Below, one piece after another: positions 3,150-46,563 of a stretch of 47,596 bases of DNA. The stretch is taken from IMG/VR virus record IMGVR_UViG_3300022682_000034, positions 1 to 47,596 of that record. The stretch is one strand, 5' to 3'. The DNA comes from a virus. Each line of letters starts with the position of its first letter. The stretch's first letter is position 1. The notes under the pieces were generated by a model. The model was not told the DNA's origin. It worked only from the letters and a program-made list of their open reading frames with translations, and did no database searches. The position numbers and the translations under genes are program-made.

Positions 3150-4758
3150 GGTCGGGGATTTTTTCGCTAATCTGTTTGGGCGAGGAACAACCCCGCAAGT
3201 GATCGAGACGATGCACGTCCCACGTGGGTCAATGCTCGGGACAACGTTTGATCTCGGGTCTTCTGATGGCTCGAAGTGGGATCTTGGTCTTTCGACATCC
3301 GGAGCGGCACCGAAAATTGACCACAATCGAGCTCGTCGCAACGCGAGATCCGCATATCTCGACTCAATCCAGACGCATTCGATCGTCAATCGGATGTCGG
3401 ATTCTGTCGTCGATCAAGGGCTCCGCCTTAAATGCTCGCCGATGGCTGACACGATCGGAGTCTCTGAAGAGCGCGCGGCCCGGTGGGCCCGTAACGTCGA
3501 GCACAGGTTCCATTTGTGGGCGAAAGATCGCAAGGGCAACCGTCAAGAGATCGTCAATTTCTATCAGTTTCAGCGGCTGATTTTCACGTCTCAACTTCGA
3601 GACGGCGAATACTTCGTGCGGCTGTACTACAATAACCGCCGAGACCTCCAAAATCCGCTCCAATTCCGCGCGGTCGACCCGGGCCTTGTGCGGTGCTCTG
3701 GATTCACAGACACGAGCGGCTATCAATTCCTCGAAGACGGGATCGAGCGGGACGCGGCCGGGCGGGAGATTGCCTATCATATCATGAGCCGAAAGGCTGA
3801 CGGCCTCTACGAAGAGATACGGATCCCAGCGGTCGGGTCGACGGGTCGACGGGTCATGCTCCATGGATTCCGGCCGGACTGGCCGGAACAAATCCGGGGT
3901 TATCCGCAATATTTCCACGCGCTCCAAGAATTTGAAAACGTCACGGACTTTTCTCTCGCCCATGTCAAAAAGGCGATAAATCAGTCCATGATCACGATGT
4001 ATGTCAAGCCGAATTCGGACAATCCCGCGTCGAATCCGCTTGCGAATGTGTCAGTGAGCAATCCAGTGGCCCCGATCGATACAACGTTGATCGAAGAATC
4101 CGATCACATTACCGCAGAGCCGCGCCTTTCGTATGTGCCAATTCCAGAGGCGACCTTTAATGCACCTGGCTCCGTCGGCGTTTTCAATCTGATGGAGGGC
4201 GAAGATCTCAAGCCCTTCAACGACTCCGCGCCGGTCCAGGAATTCGGAAATTTTGTGAATGCGTTCACTTCACACCTCGCGGCGTCGATGTCGATACCGC
4301 TCGAGGTCGTTTTGATGCAATTCAATGCGAATTATTCGGCGTCAAGGGCAGCCTTGATTTTGTTCTGGCGGGTGGCGCAGATTTGGCGCGCCGAGCTCGC
4401 GAGCGATCTGCTGAATCCGGTTTTCGAGTCTTGGCTTTCCGGAGAGATCGCCTCCGGTCGCGTTATCGCGCCCGGTTGGAGCGACCCGCGGATTCGTAAC
4501 GCCTGGTTACACTCCACTTGGAGCGGCGTCCCAATGCCGAACATCGACCCGCAGAAGACCGCGAAAGCGGATCAACTATACGTCGAAATGGGTGCCCAAA
4601 CGTTGCAAGACGTCGCTCAAAATCTCAACGGCTCGGAGATCGAAACGAATAAATCACAGCTCGCTCGTGAGCTCGAGAACCTTCCGACGCCCCCTTGGGG
4701 CAAACGGACGGAATCCGCCGAGACGAGCGCAATCCCCGAAGATTCGGAGGACGAGTAA
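3142..4758 (+). CDS. Portal protein, lambda gpB family
   Basis: This 538-residue protein would form the dodecameric ring at the capsid vertex through which DNA passes. It contains the family-typical stretch FNANYSASRAAL around residue 394, preceded by SIPLEVVLMQ, seen in lambda-type portals. Length matches gpB (about 530). It overlaps the preceding small gene and is followed closely by protease and scaffold genes, as in lambda. The C-terminal about 30 residues are acidic and probably disordered. Confidence 0.93.
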   Translation: MSKVGDFFANLFGRGTTPQVIETMHVPRGSMLGTTFDLGSSDGSKWDLGLSTSGAAPKIDHNRARRNARSAYLDSIQTHSIVNRMSDSVVDQGLRLKCSPMADTIGVSEERAARWARNVEHRFHLWAKDRKGNRQEIVNFYQFQRLIFTSQLRDGEYFVRLYYNNRRDLQNPLQFRAVDPGLVRCSGFTDTSGYQFLEDGIERDAAGREIAYHIMSRKADGLYEEIRIPAVGSTGRRVMLHGFRPDWPEQIRGYPQYFHALQEFENVTDFSLAHVKKAINQSMITMYVKPNSDNPASNPLANVSVSNPVAPIDTTLIEESDHITAEPRLSYVPIPEATFNAPGSVGVFNLMEGEDLKPFNDSAPVQEFGNFVNAFTSHLAASMSIPLEVVLMQFNANYSASRAALILFWRVAQIWRAELASDLLNPVFESWLSGEIASGRVIAPGWSDPRIRNAWLHSTWSGVPMPNIDPQKTAKADQLYVEMGAQTLQDVAQNLNGSEIETNKSQLARELENLPTPPWGKRTESAETSAIPEDSEDE

Positions 4759-31119: not shown

Positions 31120-31457
31120 CGGACCACCTTCACAACGTTTTCAAAACCGAATTGTTTTAGCAGCAACGGAACACGGAAGTTTTCACAGGTCAAAATGCTA
31201 TCCGTTTTTTCATCCAATTTGACGCAAAGACAGACGTCAAACATTGCATTGTGTTTTGCACCTTGTGCTATCACATCTGCTTCCTGAGAGAAAATGTCTA
31301 AGTCACTATCGATGTAAGTTGGACATTTTGCATTTGAAGCGTCGGCGCACAGGTCAACGCGAAAGTTGAAAATCCTGTCCAAATTGTTGAAAATGTCGTC
31401 GGGAGTCTCCCAGTTTTCACGTCGTGTGTCAGTATGATTCGCCTGGTTTTTGCTCAT
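31116..31457 (-). CDS. Truncated Dam-like protein (N-terminal part of phage N6-adenine methyltransferase)
   Basis: A 113-residue protein. Residues 16-55 (ENWETPDDIFNNLDRIFNFR, then VDLCADASNAKCPTY) match the start of the phage Dam family, normally about 170 residues. After about residue 60 the match stops: there is no DPPY/NPPY catalytic motif and the remaining sequence is unrelated. It starts by ATGA overlap with the polymerase stop, with GGAGAG upstream. It is probably catalytically dead, perhaps a binding remnant. Confidence 0.6.
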   Translation of the reverse strand: MSKNQANHTDTRRENWETPDDIFNNLDRIFNFRVDLCADASNAKCPTYIDSDLDIFSQEADVIAQGAKHNAMFDVCLCVKLDEKTDSILTCENFRVPLLLKQFGFENVVKVVR

Positions 31458-33418
31458 TTTTTGTATCTCTCCATTATGTCCGCTTTGGCCCCAATCGGCC
31501 AATGAGACGCCCACGGTGAAGCATTGCACATTGCCGATTCGAGATCTCGTTCTGAGACGGATCCGATAGGCACCTCAACCACAATCTCGTCGTGTGTGTG
31601 CATGACGATGGGCCATCCGAGGGCATCAACAGCAAGGATTGCGTCGGCTTGCAACTCGCGAGCGGTGCTTTGCACGTAATTTTCTGTCAGTTTTCCACCG
31701 TACGTCGACGTCCGTTTCCATTTCCTGGTTTCAGAGTCAATCTCTTCGTAAGTGATCGCTTGCGCCGGTTTGCCAAATTTCTCGACTTGATCGATCCGCG
31801 CGTTGATGTACCAACGTTCGGAGCCGTTCGGAAGTTTGAGGACGAGCGCGCTTAGGAGGTCATCCCAACGAAACATCGAATTTTCGCGACGATCTCGGAT
31901 GGTCTCCAAAGCTTGCCCTTCGATCCATTTCCAAAATCTTTTGACAGTGGGGTTCGTCGAGCGGTAGATATCAACGACGTTTTGCGCGAATTCGAGGGAG
32001 ATCGGGTGCCTGTATTTCTCGCACGTCTCCGCGAATTTCTTCGCCCCCATGCCGTAGCCGAGCCCAAGGATTGCTTGTTTGCCAAAAAATCTTTCCTCTG
32101 AATCTTTGCCGATTTGCTCGTACGGGACCTTGAAGATCCTCGACCCCATTGTTTTGTATGGGTCTCGACCTCTGCGGAAATCCTCGAGTAATGGCTCGTT
32201 TTTGGCCACCACGGCCAAGACACGCGCCTCAATTGAAGAGTAGTCGCAAACGATCAAAATCTTTCCATCTTCGGCCAGAATGGACGACCGAACGACAGAC
32301 GCCAGCGCGTCGACCGGATCGCCGAACGTGAATGACAATCCTCCGACGCTTCGATCCATGATCATGTTGATCGCGATCTCTATCTTCTCCGTGTCGCTGA
32401 AACCACGGGCAATGTTTTGTGTCTGGAACCGTTGCCCGCTCCAACGGCGCGTTCGGCCCGCGCCACTGTACGCGAGGTGATCGCGGATCCGGTTGTCTTC
32501 GCACACGCCGGCAATGATCGCGGGATACTTTTTGACCGCTGCCCTGCCGAGAGATTGTCGGAGCTCGAGCACCCGACGAACAACCGGGTCGATATCGTCG
32601 AGTTTCAGCGCAGCTTCGACGTCATCTTTCGTACACCCTGACATTGGCACGCCACGGGCCATCGCGAATTTTTGGATCGTGCCGGTCTGGTTTGTCGTGT
32701 GGATTTTGCCGCGCGTGATGTCCACGAGCTCGGCGTTCGCTTCGACTTGGCAAAGGTCAAAAACTTCAATCGCAGAACGCACAAAACCAAGGTCGATCGG
32801 CGCCCCGCGCTTATTGATTTTCTGGTCTACTGTGAAAATCTTGTGTTCGTGGGCACTCAGTGGAGGGAGTTGCTTCGAGACCTCGCGCTCGACGATCACA
32901 TCTTGTTTGCAGTATTCGCCGAGGCGCTCGAGGTCCGCGCGGGCCGTGCATTCAAATTCTGTTTGATATGCCCCAGGCTTCAAGACACAGATTTTCTTCA
33001 TTAGATCGTGACCGGCAAGATCCTTTTGCTCCCGCAATCCAAGGATTTTGGCGACACCGTCTAAGCTCGCTGTAAGGGAAACCGCGCGCGCCTGGGCTTG
33101 TGTGCAATGCCACTGACCATCGGCTACTGGTGGCGCCCCGAATTTCGGCACAAGTTGCTCAGACCATATCGACGATTCGAAAGATGCGTTGAACGCATGT
33201 AGTTCATTACCCGCTTCGACGAGCGCGAACAGATCACACATTTTCCTCTGCGATTCGTTGCCGGGGATCGTCGGAAACCAAATGTCAGGATTGCCGTCAT
33301 CGACAGCCCAAGCCACACATAGCACTTTAGTGCTTTCGTGCTGTGCGTACCGATGCGGCCCAGATTTCTTAAGGTCACAAGCGGATCGCGTCTCGAGATC
33401 AATATGGATTCTATGCAC
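31454..33418 (-). CDS. Family A DNA polymerase with 3'-5' exonuclease domain
   Basis: A 654-residue protein from GTG 33418 (VHRIHIDLETRS). An in-frame ATG at 33565 would add 49 residues encoded by a strongly hairpin-forming segment, so it is less likely. The exonuclease domain starts with HIDLETRS (DxE). Polymerase motif A is VCDYSSIEARVLA (about residue 391), motif B KQAILGLGYGMG (about 446), motif C HTHDEIVVEVP (about 609). This replicative polymerase type often occurs with DUF2815 and DUF2800 proteins, both encoded just upstream. Confidence 0.93.
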   Translation of the reverse strand: MHRIHIDLETRSACDLKKSGPHRYAQHESTKVLCVAWAVDDGNPDIWFPTIPGNESQRKMCDLFALVEAGNELHAFNASFESSIWSEQLVPKFGAPPVADGQWHCTQAQARAVSLTASLDGVAKILGLREQKDLAGHDLMKKICVLKPGAYQTEFECTARADLERLGEYCKQDVIVEREVSKQLPPLSAHEHKIFTVDQKINKRGAPIDLGFVRSAIEVFDLCQVEANAELVDITRGKIHTTNQTGTIQKFAMARGVPMSGCTKDDVEAALKLDDIDPVVRRVLELRQSLGRAAVKKYPAIIAGVCEDNRIRDHLAYSGAGRTRRWSGQRFQTQNIARGFSDTEKIEIAINMIMDRSVGGLSFTFGDPVDALASVVRSSILAEDGKILIVCDYSSIEARVLAVVAKNEPLLEDFRRGRDPYKTMGSRIFKVPYEQIGKDSEERFFGKQAILGLGYGMGAKKFAETCEKYRHPISLEFAQNVVDIYRSTNPTVKRFWKWIEGQALETIRDRRENSMFRWDDLLSALVLKLPNGSERWYINARIDQVEKFGKPAQAITYEEIDSETRKWKRTSTYGGKLTENYVQSTARELQADAILAVDALGWPIVMHTHDEIVVEVPIGSVSERDLESAMCNASPWASHWPIGAKADIMERYKK

Positions 33419-33463
33419 GTTTCCGTCTTTCCAGGCCGTTTGGTTTCCTCTAGTCTTGCGCTT

Positions 33464-33559
33464 TTGCCGGGCCCCCGGTTCCGATGCTTTTCGGACTGTC
33501 GAAGAATCACTGGGGGTTGTAAGGGGTTTCACGAAGGGGTGAAACCGGGAGCCCGGCAA
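33464..33559 (-). ncRNA. Structured leader / candidate RNA element upstream of the DNA polymerase
   Basis: Two 17-base arms (33464-33480 and 33543-33559) pair with 16 of 17 matches, enclosing 62 bases. Inside are GGTTTCAC...GTGAAACC (33525-33546), which competes with the base of the outer stem, and a small hairpin CCGA-6-TCGG (33481-33494). A further AGGG/CCCT pair lies at 33559-33574. It sits between the ssDNA-binding gene (ends 33596) and the polymerase start (33418). Class unknown; roles could be a regulatory leader, terminator, origin or small RNA. Confidence 0.5.
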
Positions 33560-33595
33560 GGGCACAAGGCCCCTACCACGAAAAACTCACACTAC

Positions 33596-34309
33596 TCAGT
33601 ATCCTGGATCTTGGTTCGGGTCCCAAGGCTCCTGACCATAGTTGTGTCCAGAGCTCTGACCCGACGTGCTACCTCCTGTGGGATTTTGGGTGTTGTGCCC
33701 ACCCAGGCTGAAAGGCTGACCCGAACCATTCGGATCAAAATCTGTCGCGGCTCCGAATTCGTCAGCCGCATCTGGACGACGACCGCCAAACGGCTCGCCG
33801 TCCGCGAGCTTTTGTAGGTTGTTAAGGTATACACCTACACCCTTATTTCCACTTGTATCATAGGCGAAAAAACTTACTGTCGCTCTTGCATAACAACCCG
33901 AATAAAAACCAGGTTGGTCTAATTCGGTGAGAGGCTGCCGGTCCGGTCCGACGATTTGAGGCGCAAATTTTGTCCAGGATCTGATAAAAATTGTCCCTGG
34001 GAACCCATCAGAATCGGGGAACATATTACCGTCCAGCAGCGGGCTTTTTACGTTGGCAGGAAGATCGTAGTTCTGTGAATCTGGGATTTTTGAACCCCAT
34101 TTTTCGCGCGCTGCTTTGAAAACCATCACCTTGATGGATCGAATATCCACTGTTCTATCAAACAACATCGTTAACTTGTACTTTGGAAATGCATCGTCGT
34201 CTTTCATCTGCTCAGGATGGAAAACCGACGCGAATGCTGCCCGGAACCAGGGGGTTATCGCGGTCCTCTCGTTTAGCATTTTCGCCTGATTGTATTGTTG
34301 AACTGTCAT
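33596..34309 (-). CDS. ssDNA-binding protein, DUF2815 family
   Basis: This 237-residue protein resembles DUF2815 proteins (RTAITPWFRAAFASVFHPEQ near the start, YKLTMLFDR, then GCYARATVSFFAYD). These are thought to be phage single-stranded DNA-binding proteins. The C-terminal about 65 residues are Gly/Asn/Gln-rich and acidic, ending DPNQDPGY, as in SSB tails. It lies directly before the polymerase and has a promoter upstream (34319-34347). Confidence 0.82.
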   Translation of the reverse strand: MTVQQYNQAKMLNERTAITPWFRAAFASVFHPEQMKDDDAFPKYKLTMLFDRTVDIRSIKVMVFKAAREKWGSKIPDSQNYDLPANVKSPLLDGNMFPDSDGFPGTIFIRSWTKFAPQIVGPDRQPLTELDQPGFYSGCYARATVSFFAYDTSGNKGVGVYLNNLQKLADGEPFGGRRPDAADEFGAATDFDPNGSGQPFSLGGHNTQNPTGGSTSGQSSGHNYGQEPWDPNQDPGY

Positions 34310-34318
34310 AGTAAACCC

Positions 34319-34347
34319 TTTCTAAATCGATTGACCTTGAAGGTCAA
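34319..34347 (-). promoter_or_regulatory. Promoter overlapped by a 17-base palindrome
   Basis: Minus strand: TTGACC (34347-34342), 17 bases, TAGAAA (34324-34319). The -35 box lies inside TTGACCTTGAAGGTCAA (34331-34347), a perfect 8-base dyad around one central base. This looks like an operator for a dimeric repressor controlling the ssDNA-binding and polymerase genes. The repressor is unknown. Confidence 0.55.
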
Positions 34348-34368
34348 GAAAAAAACGTAAAAATCAGT

Positions 34369-34746
34369 TTATTTGATTGCCCATTTCGCATTGAAGCGAT
34401 CCCCGATTTTCGTGATTGTGTCGGATTTGACCAATGTGGCAAGCGCTCTGGTAACAACCTGCATTTCCTCGCCCAAATCCTCGGACATCTCACGCGCTGG
34501 CACAGGGGCGTTGATTGCACGGAGGTAGTGCTCAATCCTGCGATGAAGAGAGAGGACCTCTTCTTTCGTCCTTCGTTTTTGTTTCCCTTTTATCGCAAAC
34601 AGCAATTCGTCAATCGTCAGGTCACCGAGACCGACAGAGCACAAATCCTCGATCTTCGTGTCTTTGTTGCACCGGCTCCGGATGTAATCACGCCGCACCT
34701 TCTCAATTCCGCCTAGTTTTTTGGTCGCGTATTCTGAAAAGTCCAT
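34369..34746 (-). CDS. Hypothetical protein with C-terminal winged helix
   Basis: A 125-residue basic protein from ATG 34746 (MDFSEYATKKLGG), with AAGGAAGGGG upstream; longer in-frame starts lack one. The C-terminal about 55 residues (HYLRAINAPVPAREMSEDLG, then VVTRALATLVKSDTITKIG) fit a winged helix-turn-helix. A DNA-binding role is likely; the target is unknown. Confidence 0.55.
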   Translation of the reverse strand: MDFSEYATKKLGGIEKVRRDYIRSRCNKDTKIEDLCSVGLGDLTIDELLFAIKGKQKRRTKEEVLSLHRRIEHYLRAINAPVPAREMSEDLGEEMQVVTRALATLVKSDTITKIGDRFNAKWAIK

Positions 34747-34999: not shown

Positions 35000-36175
35000 T
35001 CAATCTTCGAATTGTTTTTCCGCTGATTGGACATCGATCGCAGGCCGTTTGTCTTTTTCTGGTACGAGCACCGGGCCTTTATCCGCTCGGGTAATGTGCT
35101 TCGAAACCCAATCCTTATCGAGGATTTTCTCGAGTTTGCTTGGGCTCTTCAGCTTCTTCTCGAAATATTGGTCTTGCTTGAGTTTCTGTCCACGAAGTTT
35201 TTTGACCATCGTTTTTTCGTCGTGTGCCCACTGCCGATTCCCATAGGCGTTGACGAGTTTGAATCCCTGGATCGTCTCGCCTTGCAGCGCGGATTCTGTC
35301 AATTTTTTGTGAGCAGCCGCGAGAAAGCTTTTTATGACTTTCTCGTGGCTCACGATCCGAACGAGCTCATCAATCGGAGCGCGCTTGGCGATCTCCTCGA
35401 TTTCCTCTTTGGTCGGATCGTCGGAAAACTGGTCAACCGCTGCGACCATAAGATCGTCTTTGACTTTCGGGCACTCGAGCCGATCGAGGCAATATAGGCA
35501 ATGATCGCCGGAAACGCGGGGTGGATTGTCGGAGATCAGACACTCGACGATTGCATCCTCGAATCGTTTCGTCCATTGCGCCGCGAATTCTTCCGGCGAC
35601 TCCTCGACAATCCACGAGTCGACAGCCGGGCCACTGGTACGGGGCTGGAAGACGTGGATCTGGACCTCGGTCACAACGACGCCGATTTCTTCAAGATGAT
35701 TGAGCACACCGAGCGCGTACGCAGCGAGTTGTGGATTGTCCTCGGCACGTACTTCGTTGAACCCATATTTCAAATCAACGACGTGAAGCGTTCCAAAGCT
35801 CTCGTAGCAAACGAAATCAGCAGTCCCCCAAAAACTGATATGACCGGGGATTTTAAATCGCCCCTCAACGATTGTATCTGATGCATTGGCCGAGATGCTT
35901 TTGCAAAATGAGACATATTTCAGGAGGTGCTCGGCCATATCTTGGCTCAAAAACTGCTTTTCGGCGTATCCGGCCAAATCTATGGGGATCCCAACAATCT
36001 CCATCGGGTCCGTGTTGTTACTGAGGCACCATTCCGCGAAAGCATGAGCAAGCGAACCCTCGCGTGATGCTTCGCTCCCTTCAGATTTTTTACCTTGCTC
36101 CGCGGCCCACGATCCGGAACATGCAATCCACCGGTGCGCGGCCGAGGGGCTGAATTGTGCATGTTTTTCGGTCAT
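35000..36175 (-). CDS. DUF2800 family protein (RecB-like PD-(D/E)XK fold)
   Basis: This 391-residue protein starts with the family-typical HAQFSPSAAHRWIACSGSWA. The nuclease-like core is GTADFVCYESFGTLHVVDLK (residues of about 116-135), with DLKYG holding the D/E-x-K element. A Cys-containing patch (CLYCLDRLECP) near residue 248 could bind an iron-sulfur cluster, as in related AddB/Cas4-like nucleases. Often encoded with DUF2815 and a family A polymerase. It overlaps the next upstream gene by ATGA. Confidence 0.82.
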   Translation of the reverse strand: MTEKHAQFSPSAAHRWIACSGSWAAEQGKKSEGSEASREGSLAHAFAEWCLSNNTDPMEIVGIPIDLAGYAEKQFLSQDMAEHLLKYVSFCKSISANASDTIVEGRFKIPGHISFWGTADFVCYESFGTLHVVDLKYGFNEVRAEDNPQLAAYALGVLNHLEEIGVVVTEVQIHVFQPRTSGPAVDSWIVEESPEEFAAQWTKRFEDAIVECLISDNPPRVSGDHCLYCLDRLECPKVKDDLMVAAVDQFSDDPTKEEIEEIAKRAPIDELVRIVSHEKVIKSFLAAAHKKLTESALQGETIQGFKLVNAYGNRQWAHDEKTMVKKLRGQKLKQDQYFEKKLKSPSKLEKILDKDWVSKHITRADKGPVLVPEKDKRPAIDVQSAEKQFED

Positions 36176-36589: not shown

Positions 36590-37099
36590 CTACGCATTAT
36601 CAGCCTCCATCCTCTCGACAATCAGTCGGAGCTGCCACGCGAGTTCTGTGGACCCGGCGGCGCAATAGACGGAGTACCAGGCGGCGGCGGACCCGGCGGC
36701 GGCGCAATAGGCGGCGGAATCCGCTGCGTAATCGGCGGAGGACAAGGAGGAGGACCGGGCGGCTGACCAGGCGGCGCGCAGGTCATCATATGTCCTATCG
36801 CCGTCGGCGTACAGCCTGGACGTGATTATTGCATCCCAAGACCGCGGGTCAGTCGACCCGCCAGCGTCAACGACCCTTTTGAGCGAGCGCTCGGCGCAAT
36901 CGCAGGCAAAAAGCCGGACGGTGCGCGACGTGACCAGCCTGGTCAGTGCCCAGATCCGATCCTCGGGCGGGATGTCAAGAGCTGCTATCTCTCGTGCAGA
37001 CAGGGACTCACGCCCTGCCCAGAGCGCGGAAACGCGCCAACGGGGGTAATCCTCACACGGATCGAGGCTCATTATATCTTCGACTGTGTAAACACTCAT
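36590..37099 (-). CDS. Imm5-like 'putative immunity protein' paralogue A
   Basis: A 169-residue protein. Residues 1-110 contain the family pattern: LWAGRESLSAREIAALDIPP, DRIWALTRLVTSR, RLFACDCAERSLKRV, DPRSWDAIITSRLYADGDRT. It then turns into an Ala/Ser/Tyr-rich repeat (about 110-150) and ends VERMEADNA. This is the architecture of the Ala-rich 'putative immunity protein' (Imm5-like) family seen near bacterial toxin loci. It is the last of three tandem paralogues. Role in a phage is unknown. Confidence 0.65.
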   Translation of the reverse strand: MSVYTVEDIMSLDPCEDYPRWRVSALWAGRESLSAREIAALDIPPEDRIWALTRLVTSRTVRLFACDCAERSLKRVVDAGGSTDPRSWDAIITSRLYADGDRTYDDLRAAWSAARSSSLSSADYAADSAAYCAAAGSAAAWYSVYCAAGSTELAWQLRLIVERMEADNA

Positions 37100-37575
37100 T
37101 TTCCAACCTCAATTCGCTCTACAAGGCGGTTTAGTTTCCATTCGGCCTCCGTGTCCGTGACTGGCAGAGAGGTGGATCTAACGGCAGGCCAAGCCGCTCC
37201 CATGACCGCATACCGTGCGGCGGCAATGTCCAACATGTTAAAATCGGCTGAGCGTAGATCATCCTCCGTCGCCTTACCGTCCGCATACAGCCTCGAAACA
37301 ATAATAGCATTCCTGGTCCGCCAATCGATCACATCACCACTTACAAGGTGTGCCTGGATGTCTCGTTCAGCGCAGTCACACGCAAAAATACGTGCTGCGC
37401 GTGGGGTAGCCAATTCGCACAACGCCCAAATGCGATCCCAGATAGGGATGTCGAGTTCCGCAATCTCCCTCACAGACAGGGACTCACGACCGGCCCAGAG
37501 TTTTTCCACGCGCTCACGGGGGTAACCCTCGCACGGGTTGAGTTTCATAATGTCACAAACTGTGTATCTATGCAT
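37096..37575 (-). CDS. Imm5-like 'putative immunity protein' paralogue B
   Basis: A 159-residue paralogue of its neighbours: LWAGRESLSVREIAELDIPI, DRIWALCELATPRAAR, IFACDCAERDIQAHL. The Ala-rich repeat is short here (about residues 114-130), so it has lost or never expanded the repeat. The start overlaps the previous paralogue's stop by 8 bases and its stop overlaps the next start by 4. It is the most diverged of the three. Confidence 0.65.
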   Translation of the reverse strand: MHRYTVCDIMKLNPCEGYPRERVEKLWAGRESLSVREIAELDIPIWDRIWALCELATPRAARIFACDCAERDIQAHLVSGDVIDWRTRNAIIVSRLYADGKATEDDLRSADFNMLDIAAARYAVMGAAWPAVRSTSLPVTDTEAEWKLNRLVERIEVGK

Positions 37576-38155
37576 TATCGGCCTCCATTCGCTCTACCAA
37601 ATGACCTAATTGCCAGTTTTGCTCGGCGGCGTAATCGGAGGACCAGTCTGCGGACAAGGCGGCGTAATCGGCGGCGGAACAGGCGGCGGAACAGGCGGCG
37701 GAATAGGCGGCGGCGGCGTACCTGGCGGTGGACCTGGCGGCGGCGGCGGTGAACTTGGCGGCGGCGACGGCTGGCCAGGCGGCGGAATCGAAGGCGGAAT
37801 CGGCGACGTAATATGCGGCGAACGCGGCGGCGCGCAGATCATTTTCGGTCCTATCGCCGTCGGCGTACAAACGGGACGTGATTACTGCGTCCCAAGACCG
37901 CGGGTCAGTCGATCCACCATTGTCGACGACACGCTGGAGCGCGCGCTCGGCGCAATCACATGAAAACAGCCTAGCCGTGCGATGAGTGGCAAGCCCAGTC
38001 AGGGCCCAGATGCGATCCTTGACCGGGATGTCAAGAGCTGCGATCTCGCGCGCCGTCAGCGCTTCGCGACCAGACCAAAGTGCGGCCACGCGCTCACGTG
38101 TGTAGCCCTCGCACGGATCGAGACTCATTATATCGTCAACTGTGTATCTATGCAT
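37568..38155 (-). CDS. Imm5-like 'putative immunity protein' paralogue C
   Basis: A 195-residue paralogue, the longest. The N-terminal 110 residues closely match paralogue A (LWSGREALTAREIAALDIPV, DRIWALTGLATHRTARLFSC, DPRSWDAVITSRLYADGDRT). Its Ala-rich tract (about 113-180) is expanded, with repeated AAYSAACSAACSAADYAA-like units. It ends VERMEADNA like paralogue A. The first gene of the tandem array, directly downstream of the caspase-like gene. Confidence 0.65.
   Translation of the reverse strand: MHRYTVDDIMSLDPCEGYTRERVAALWSGREALTAREIAALDIPVKDRIWALTGLATHRTARLFSCDCAERALQRVVDNGGSTDPRSWDAVITSRLYADGDRTENDLRAAAFAAYYVADSAFDSAAWPAVAAAKFTAAAARSTARYAAAAYSAACSAACSAADYAALSADWSSDYAAEQNWQLGHLVERMEADNA
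37622..37830 (+). repeat. G-rich GGCGGCGG repeat tract (coding for the Ala-rich region)
   Basis: The plus strand carries many GGCGG-type units separated by 3-6 bases over about 200 bases; the minus strand encodes the Ala-rich segment of paralogue C. A shorter version lies at about 36656-36780 in paralogue A. The tract can expand or contract by slippage and could form G-quadruplexes on the non-template strand. Confidence 0.7.
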
Positions 38156-41275: not shown

Positions 41276-41340
41276 TGTTCCGTCCCTTTCGTGTGTTGTC
41301 GGCTTGCCTCGTCAGCGCGGTGGGGGCCACCCGACCGCGG

Positions 41341-41355
41341 ACGCCCAGGGGGCGT
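41341..41355. other. Short GC-rich hairpin between small early genes
   Basis: ACGCCC-AGG-GGGCGT forms a perfect 6-base stem 6 bases past the 3' end of the gene at 41361 on the minus strand. There is no T run on that side, so it is not a standard intrinsic terminator; it may slow RNA decay or transcription. Confidence 0.3.
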
Positions 41356-41360
41356 TTCGG

Positions 41361-41606
41361 CTATTTGGCCAGAGAGTGGAAGAGCCAATTCACCAGCTCC
41401 GCTTTCGCCTCTTTGTTCGATTTCAGTGTGTTGTAGAATTCGCTACGAGCTTTCAATTCGATTGTCATATATCCGACAATCGTGTCCAAAAAAGTTTGTT
41501 CATCCAACGAAACAAGTTTGTCAGCGTTGAGGCCATCACGGAACATTCTGTCTATAACGGCTTTGGCGAGGTTTTCGAGGTCTTTCATTTCGACTTGATT
41601 GGTCAT
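41361..41606 (-). CDS. Hypothetical helical protein (81 residues)
   Basis: Starts MTNQVEMKDLENLAKAVIDR and is helical throughout. CGAAAGGGAAAAACA precedes the ATG. Promoter at 41648-41676 lies directly upstream. It resembles in style the helical proteins at 42356 and 42732. Function unknown. Confidence 0.6.
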   Translation of the reverse strand: MTNQVEMKDLENLAKAVIDRMFRDGLNADKLVSLDEQTFLDTIVGYMTIELKARSEFYNTLKSNKEAKAELVNWLFHSLAK

Positions 41607-46237: not shown

Positions 46238-46563
46238 CGCAAAATTTGCGAATTCGATATCCTGAGAGTAGTAATTTGATTTATACCATATTTTGATGCT
46301 TTGGGGTTTCCAGCTATAGCTTCCCATATCGCTTTTTGTGTGCCAGTTTTATCCTACATGCCTTTTATGTAATAATAATCAGGCGTTATACAACGCGAGG
46401 CAAGTTTTATCAATATTCTAATGTAGGATATATACATACAATACTGGCGCACAAAACGCAATATAGAGAGCTAATAGCTGGAGAGTGGCGTACAGACCGC
46501 GCTCGCAAATTTTGCGACAGACCCGATATTTTACCGATTGATGCCCTTCTCGCAAAATTTGCG
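46238..46563. repeat. Repeated CGCAAAATTTGCG palindromes (iteron or operator-like)
   Basis: Three copies: CGCAAAATTTGCG at 46238-46250 and 46551-46563 (both followed by AATTC), and the reverse-complement CGCAAATTTTGCG at 46504-46516. Related partial copies with AAATTTTG occur at 47471-47498 near the other end. Each is a near-perfect palindrome centred on A or T. They could bind a replication initiator or repressor. Confidence 0.65.
46351..46429. repeat. Nested inverted repeat
   Basis: ATCCTACAT (46351-46359) pairs perfectly with ATGTAGGAT (46421-46429) across 61 bases. Within the loop GCGTT-ATAC-AACGC (46383-46396) is another inverted repeat. AGTTTTATC occurs as a direct repeat at 46345 and about 46403. 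Confidence 0.55.

Follow-up and report, generated by a model that had tools for sequence, protein, structure and literature searches.

A large structured element behind the single-stranded DNA-binding protein gene of a tailed phage is a candidate operon-stoichiometry hairpin

The window analysed here is a whole virus record of 47,596 bases and belongs to a tailed phage. On its minus strand, an Enc34-type (DUF2815, T7 gp2.5-like) ssDNA-binding protein (SSB) is encoded at 33596..34309 (PF10991, E 5.7e-39; phrog_112, E 6.8e-41). A family A DNA polymerase follows downstream at 31454..33418, when read from a GTG at 33418 that stands at the homologous start position (VHRIHIDLETRS) and has an SD energy of -3.5 kcal/mol. 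An exonuclease-like DUF2800 gene at 35000-36175 is read leftward, as are SSB and the polymerase. If the polymerase starts at GTG 33418, as would usually be expected, 177 nt (33419-33595) separate it from the SSB gene. An initial annotation had located a structured element between the ssDNA-binding gene and the polymerase GTG; this placement is right, with the correction that both genes lie on the minus strand. In the same leftward operon, a type II hammerhead ribozyme at 41297-41362 on the minus strand (Rfam RF02276, 41.4 bits, over threshold) has its first position at the stop codon of a small gene, and approximately 20 nt remain between its end and the ATG that follows. Three tandem paralogous genes (MHRYTVDDIMSLDPCEGY...) occupy 36590-38155 on the minus strand; for one of them, an Imm5-like immunity protein was matched weakly and below threshold. 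Between divergent modules, a 180-nt imperfect palindrome (46306-46484) and three perfect TCGCAAAWTTTGCGA palindromes (46237, 46503 and 46550) in the same inter-module region are origin or operator candidates.

The structured element at the boundary between the SSB stop and the polymerase is 114 nt long (33455..33568, minus strand) and begins 27 nt past the SSB stop. In sense orientation, its 5' arm CUUGUGCCCUUGCCGGGCUCCCGGUU (33543..33568, minus strand) and its 3' arm AACCGGGGGCCCGGCAAAAGCGCAAG (33455..33480, minus strand) form an inverted repeat of 26 nt per arm, in which 22 of 26 positions are complementary and pair probabilities are approximately 1 at most positions of the 5' arm. The 17-base arms with one mismatch that were described initially (33464-33480 and 33543-33559, pairing at 16 of 17 positions) are extendable to these 26 nt. 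The repeat is the strongest among those listed for the window. An ungapped repeat of equal quality arises somewhere in approximately 6% of Markov-resampled windows; window-wide, the arm repeat is moderately unusual, and it is much more so given its location in the 177-nt gap. The minus (sense) strand of the element has an MFE of -56.0 kcal/mol (z -6.8) and the plus strand reaches -58.8 kcal/mol (z -4.8), with 0 of 200 shuffles as good on either strand, and both z-scores overstate the effect, since the boundaries were picked from the arms; the conservative figure is that of the unselected 177-nt gap, with z -2.3 on the minus strand and -1.2 on the plus strand. Judged by their arms, the two strands are equivalent, with 2 G-U and 2 A-C on each, so the arms alone cannot tell the strand.

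The interior of the element is 62 nt long and multi-hairpin, and is larger than in most homologues. The internal hairpin reported earlier is present (GGUUUCAC-CCCUUC-GUGAAACC, 33525..33546, minus strand), with GGTTTCAC at 33525-33532 pairing with GTGAAACC at 33539-33546 over 8 bp (-10.8 kcal/mol), as is the further small hairpin of 5 bp, UCCGA-AAAGCA-UCGGA, at 33480..33495 on the minus strand in the fold of the 114-nt element. The GGUU of the inner hairpin (33543-33546) can alternatively pair with AACC of the 3' arm, and its pair probabilities are approximately 0.5-0.9. To this extent the stems do compete, but the overlap is 4 nt only and the stems coexist in one fold. A riboswitch or leader switch needs two mutually exclusive folds of comparable energy; because only 4 nt are shared and the pair probabilities place the long stem and the inner hairpin in the same fold, the switch proposed initially is unsupported. 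The large hairpin structure after SSB is real.

The class of the element had been left unrecognised, and searches of Rfam, promoters and terminators, which gave no match, leave it so. Rfam gave no family for the element at gathering thresholds, and a permissively filtered search to E 10 added only a chance microRNA hairpin; the element matches no covariance model of a known ribozyme class, and a self-cleaving ribozyme of any Rfam class was rejected. The element has no sense-strand U-tract, its tails being AAAAGCGCAAG and CCUUACAACC, and an intrinsic (Rho-independent) terminator is unsupported on this ground; a search of the minus strand for terminators across 33300-34400 also found none. No sigma-70-type promoter was found at the element in a search whose coverage was that type of promoter, which argues, weakly since other types fall outside that coverage, against the small RNA that had been suggested. 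Within the window there is no second copy of the element or of the operator-like GGTTTCAC-N6-GTGAAACC, and the arm patterns matched nothing in public viral and genome contigs; with no copies in the window or in the other genomes searched, a dispersed inverted-repeat element (REP or MITE type) was rejected. A nucleotide search of phage genomes with the element gave no match, and searches of viral and genome contigs for relatives by polymerase, SSB and a degenerate motif found none above approximately 37% identity.

As no near relative offered covariation of the window's own pairs, the main weakness of the case, homologous loci were compared by place and not by sequence. The set comprised 80 loci from viral contigs, each with a related polymerase, together with eight phage genomes, and 75 SSB ends were located, that of the window included. 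The 110 nt past the SSB stop gave z < -2 at 55% of these ends, compared to 14% of other gene ends and 7% inside SSB; approximately half of the SSB ends are without significant structure. A fairer control is provided by genes in the same loci that have a 30-250 nt gap behind them. Here, z < -2 was obtained after 53% of gapped SSB ends and after 15% of other gapped genes (p 1.4e-5; related loci are not fully independent, so p-values here and below are upper bounds on confidence). In addition, strong hairpins occur upstream of the polymerase in 41% of the loci whose SSB lies at a distance of 30-180 nt, compared to 14% of those with SSB elsewhere. These frequencies point to an association of the hairpin with the SSB end, not with a polymerase leader, and because polymerases with a distant SSB lack the hairpin, we assign the element to the 3' side of SSB. 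The earlier suggestion of a leader controlling the polymerase is therefore kept in part: a structured control element does appear to lie at the SSB-polymerase boundary, where SSB ends are hairpin hot spots and stems are replaced while the hairpin is kept, but it would belong to the SSB 3' side.

This replacement of stems is seen in an SSB clade of 66-78% identity, in which the stems are swapped (for example GCGGCCC/GGGCCGC, GCGACCC/GGGUCGC and CGGGCGGC/GCCGCCCG) and the hairpin is kept 20-45 nt past the stop. It is missing in 1 of 15 clade loci (L140), several of the 15 being near-identical to one another or repeats of loci already used. A three-sequence SSB alignment was usable for collecting homologues, other SSB alignments being too diverse. 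T-runs come after many of the clade hairpins and, counting over all 75 SSB ends, after at least 14; in the annotation of Pseudomonas phage PaMx28, SSB is followed by a terminator. On the sense strand, the homologous stems carry G-U pairs over A-C mismatches by 24 to 10 (p 0.024), compared to 48 and 42 in the control. Because sense-strand G-U exceeds A-C in these stems, action at the RNA level is indicated.

Several homologous loci carry a hairpin with an invariant UUGGAAGUC loop approximately 20-50 nt past the SSB stop. Nine of them (L020, L022, L029, L031, L033, L038, L039, L050 and L091) came from the polymerase search, and approximately 35 more, among L096-L135, came from a scan for the loop pattern. 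The upstream frame was SSB in 43 of 43 cases where a reading frame was identifiable, and since most loci came from the loop-pattern scan, this linkage was tested mostly on loci unselected by gene. The stems covary, with 28 cells changed on both sides, where 11 were expected (sd 2.4) and slid structures gave 0-13. The hairpin is absent from Rfam at its thresholds, and represents a candidate RNA family absent from that collection. It shares with the window element its place, approximately 20-50 nt past the stop of the same SSB family, but it is a small single hairpin with a conserved loop, to which the window has no match. The stem behind SSB in the window has no apical UUGGAAGUC loop and the best hit (E 0.14) lies elsewhere in the window, and membership of the element in this family was rejected.

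In the 19 loci where SSB and the polymerase are directly adjacent, the opening 102 nt of the polymerase are more structured than synonymous-codon shuffles, which keep protein and codon usage: z averages -2.5 and is below -2 in 13 of the loci. At 50% identity these loci fall into eight clusters, and the effect is seen in six of the eight. The corresponding fraction below z -2 is 5% for polymerases with a gap to SSB, 12% for those with SSB elsewhere, and 0-21% further along the polymerase gene. Hairpins beyond the synonymous-codon expectation lie in the first ~130 nt of the polymerase in L024, L037, L040, L046, L048, L056, L057, L073, L075, L082, L085 and L086. The shuffles argue that this structure exceeds the demand of the protein motif KSGVYxYxxSPDF, and so argue against the view that the early-codon hairpins are a by-product of the motif. 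Structure is apparently kept within polymerase codons when the gap is absent, which makes RNA selection separable from protein selection.

SSB is generally needed in excess over polymerase. We favour reading the element as an operon-stoichiometry hairpin placed at the SSB 3' boundary, one that raises SSB relative to polymerase output, with a probability of approximately 0.5. The element is a stable stem-loop between SSB and its downstream neighbour, and unrelated hairpins recur at the same place in homologous phages; the keeping of a hairpin at the SSB boundary holds for the homologous loci as a group, the window sequence itself being without close relatives. From structure, place and recurrence we infer action on RNA. 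The element would fold co-transcriptionally on the leftward (minus-strand) replication transcript, directly past the SSB stop, and the folded element would lower intact polymerase message relative to SSB message. This direction of effect could come about by decay, if the upstream SSB segment were protected from 3'-to-5' degradation after cleavage, by attenuation, if some RNA polymerases were halted at the element, or by both. The element may additionally hinder ribosomes initiating on the polymerase.

The nearest rival is translational control, in which the fold would hide the polymerase start and ribosomes finishing SSB, or the SSB protein, would open it. Such an arrangement is plainly seen in L072, where a 21-bp stem (~3890-3997) immediately before the polymerase ATG contains its SD GGGAGGU, but we consider it unlikely for the window element, since most homologous hairpins leave the polymerase start free or sit inside the reading frame. 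The window offers two candidates for the start codon. GTG 33565 is inside the outer helix with a pair probability of 1.0; for GTG 33418, the weak SD region pairs with sequence just past the SSB stop and 33425-33431 are largely paired, although this long-range pairing is based on one sequence. The same two candidates bear on plain coding, in which the polymerase would begin at GTG 33565 with a basic N-terminal extension of 49 codons (33419..33565, minus strand) and the palindrome would be a by-product. The SD energy at GTG 33565 is -6.0 kcal/mol, stronger than at GTG 33418 (genome median -7.0), the frame is open, and a gap of approximately 30 nt is commoner than one of 177 nt, so that SD strength and spacing would favour GTG 33565. 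Position would favour GTG 33418, because homologous polymerases usually have their start only a few residues from the IDFETRS motif, an arrangement that this GTG shares. Codon scores are ambiguous: the log-likelihood of the extension falls under the 1st percentile for segments of real genes, yet exceeds that of most wrong frames. Even when read as coding from GTG 33565, the element folds better than synonymous-codon shuffles (z -2.7, 2 of 200), and we regard plain coding as quite unlikely. Since several homologues have such hairpins within the polymerase frame, the element would stand even if the polymerase began at 33565, and because these in-frame hairpins, with the window's among them if it is read from that GTG, exceed synonymous shuffles, the start-codon question does not decide its importance.

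An element acting as DNA, whether a replication structure, an operator or an inserted inverted-repeat element, would agree with the equal quality of the arms on both strands and with the resemblance of GGTTTCAC-N6-GTGAAACC to an operator. We find it improbable, given the lack of copies in the window and of arm matches in public contigs and the preference of homologous hairpins for G-U on the sense strand. The origin structure that had been considered is also made less likely by better origin-like features at 46.2-46.6 kb, where palindromes mark the boundary between the divergent modules. An unrecognised self-cleaving ribozyme, or another catalytic or ligand-binding RNA, could cut the transcript between SSB and the polymerase, and the hammerhead between two genes of the same operon indicates that this phage does use an intercistronic ribozyme. 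However, no hammerhead core is seen in the element sequence, and together with the Rfam result this makes such an RNA very improbable here.

For the operon-stoichiometry hairpin, a wider proposal can be put forward, which we hold tentatively. Phages with DUF2815-type SSBs may share a conserved point of RNA control at the SSB end, in several unrelated forms (UUGGAAGUC-loop, terminator-like, long-arm, and in the polymerase frame via synonymous codon choice), perhaps bound by SSB for feedback, of which the window element would be a large member. An operon-stoichiometry hairpin at this place would give a rule for how unequal protein amounts are obtained from co-transcribed genes in compact phage replication operons.

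Operon-stoichiometry hairpins are already known in bacteria, and on our preferred reading the window element is of such a kind, without a U-tract. The type II hammerhead between phage genes (PMC3088659), of which the one at 41297-41362 is an example, is likewise an intercistronic structured RNA in a phage operon, but the SSB-polymerase element fits no ribozyme model. Among the bacterial examples, internal intrinsic terminators that are poor in U and have long GC-rich stems fix the stoichiometry of operons (Wu et al. 2022, PMC9045158). Like the window element, they are stem-loops right behind a gene whose product is required in excess, with long GC-rich stems and poor U-tracts; in contrast to them, the window element has no U-tract at all and has a 62-nt structured interior, and termination here is only putative. 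Protective hairpins, generally within coding regions, reshape operons through differential decay (Dar and Sorek 2018, PMC5927463). Those structures were described by RNA-seq in E. coli chromosomal operons, whereas the window element belongs to a phage, is tied to SSB alone and is known from sequence only. The likeness is that of a hairpin located between the genes of a single operon or within one of them, frequently conserved and set in coding sequence, that divides an abundant from a scarce message segment.
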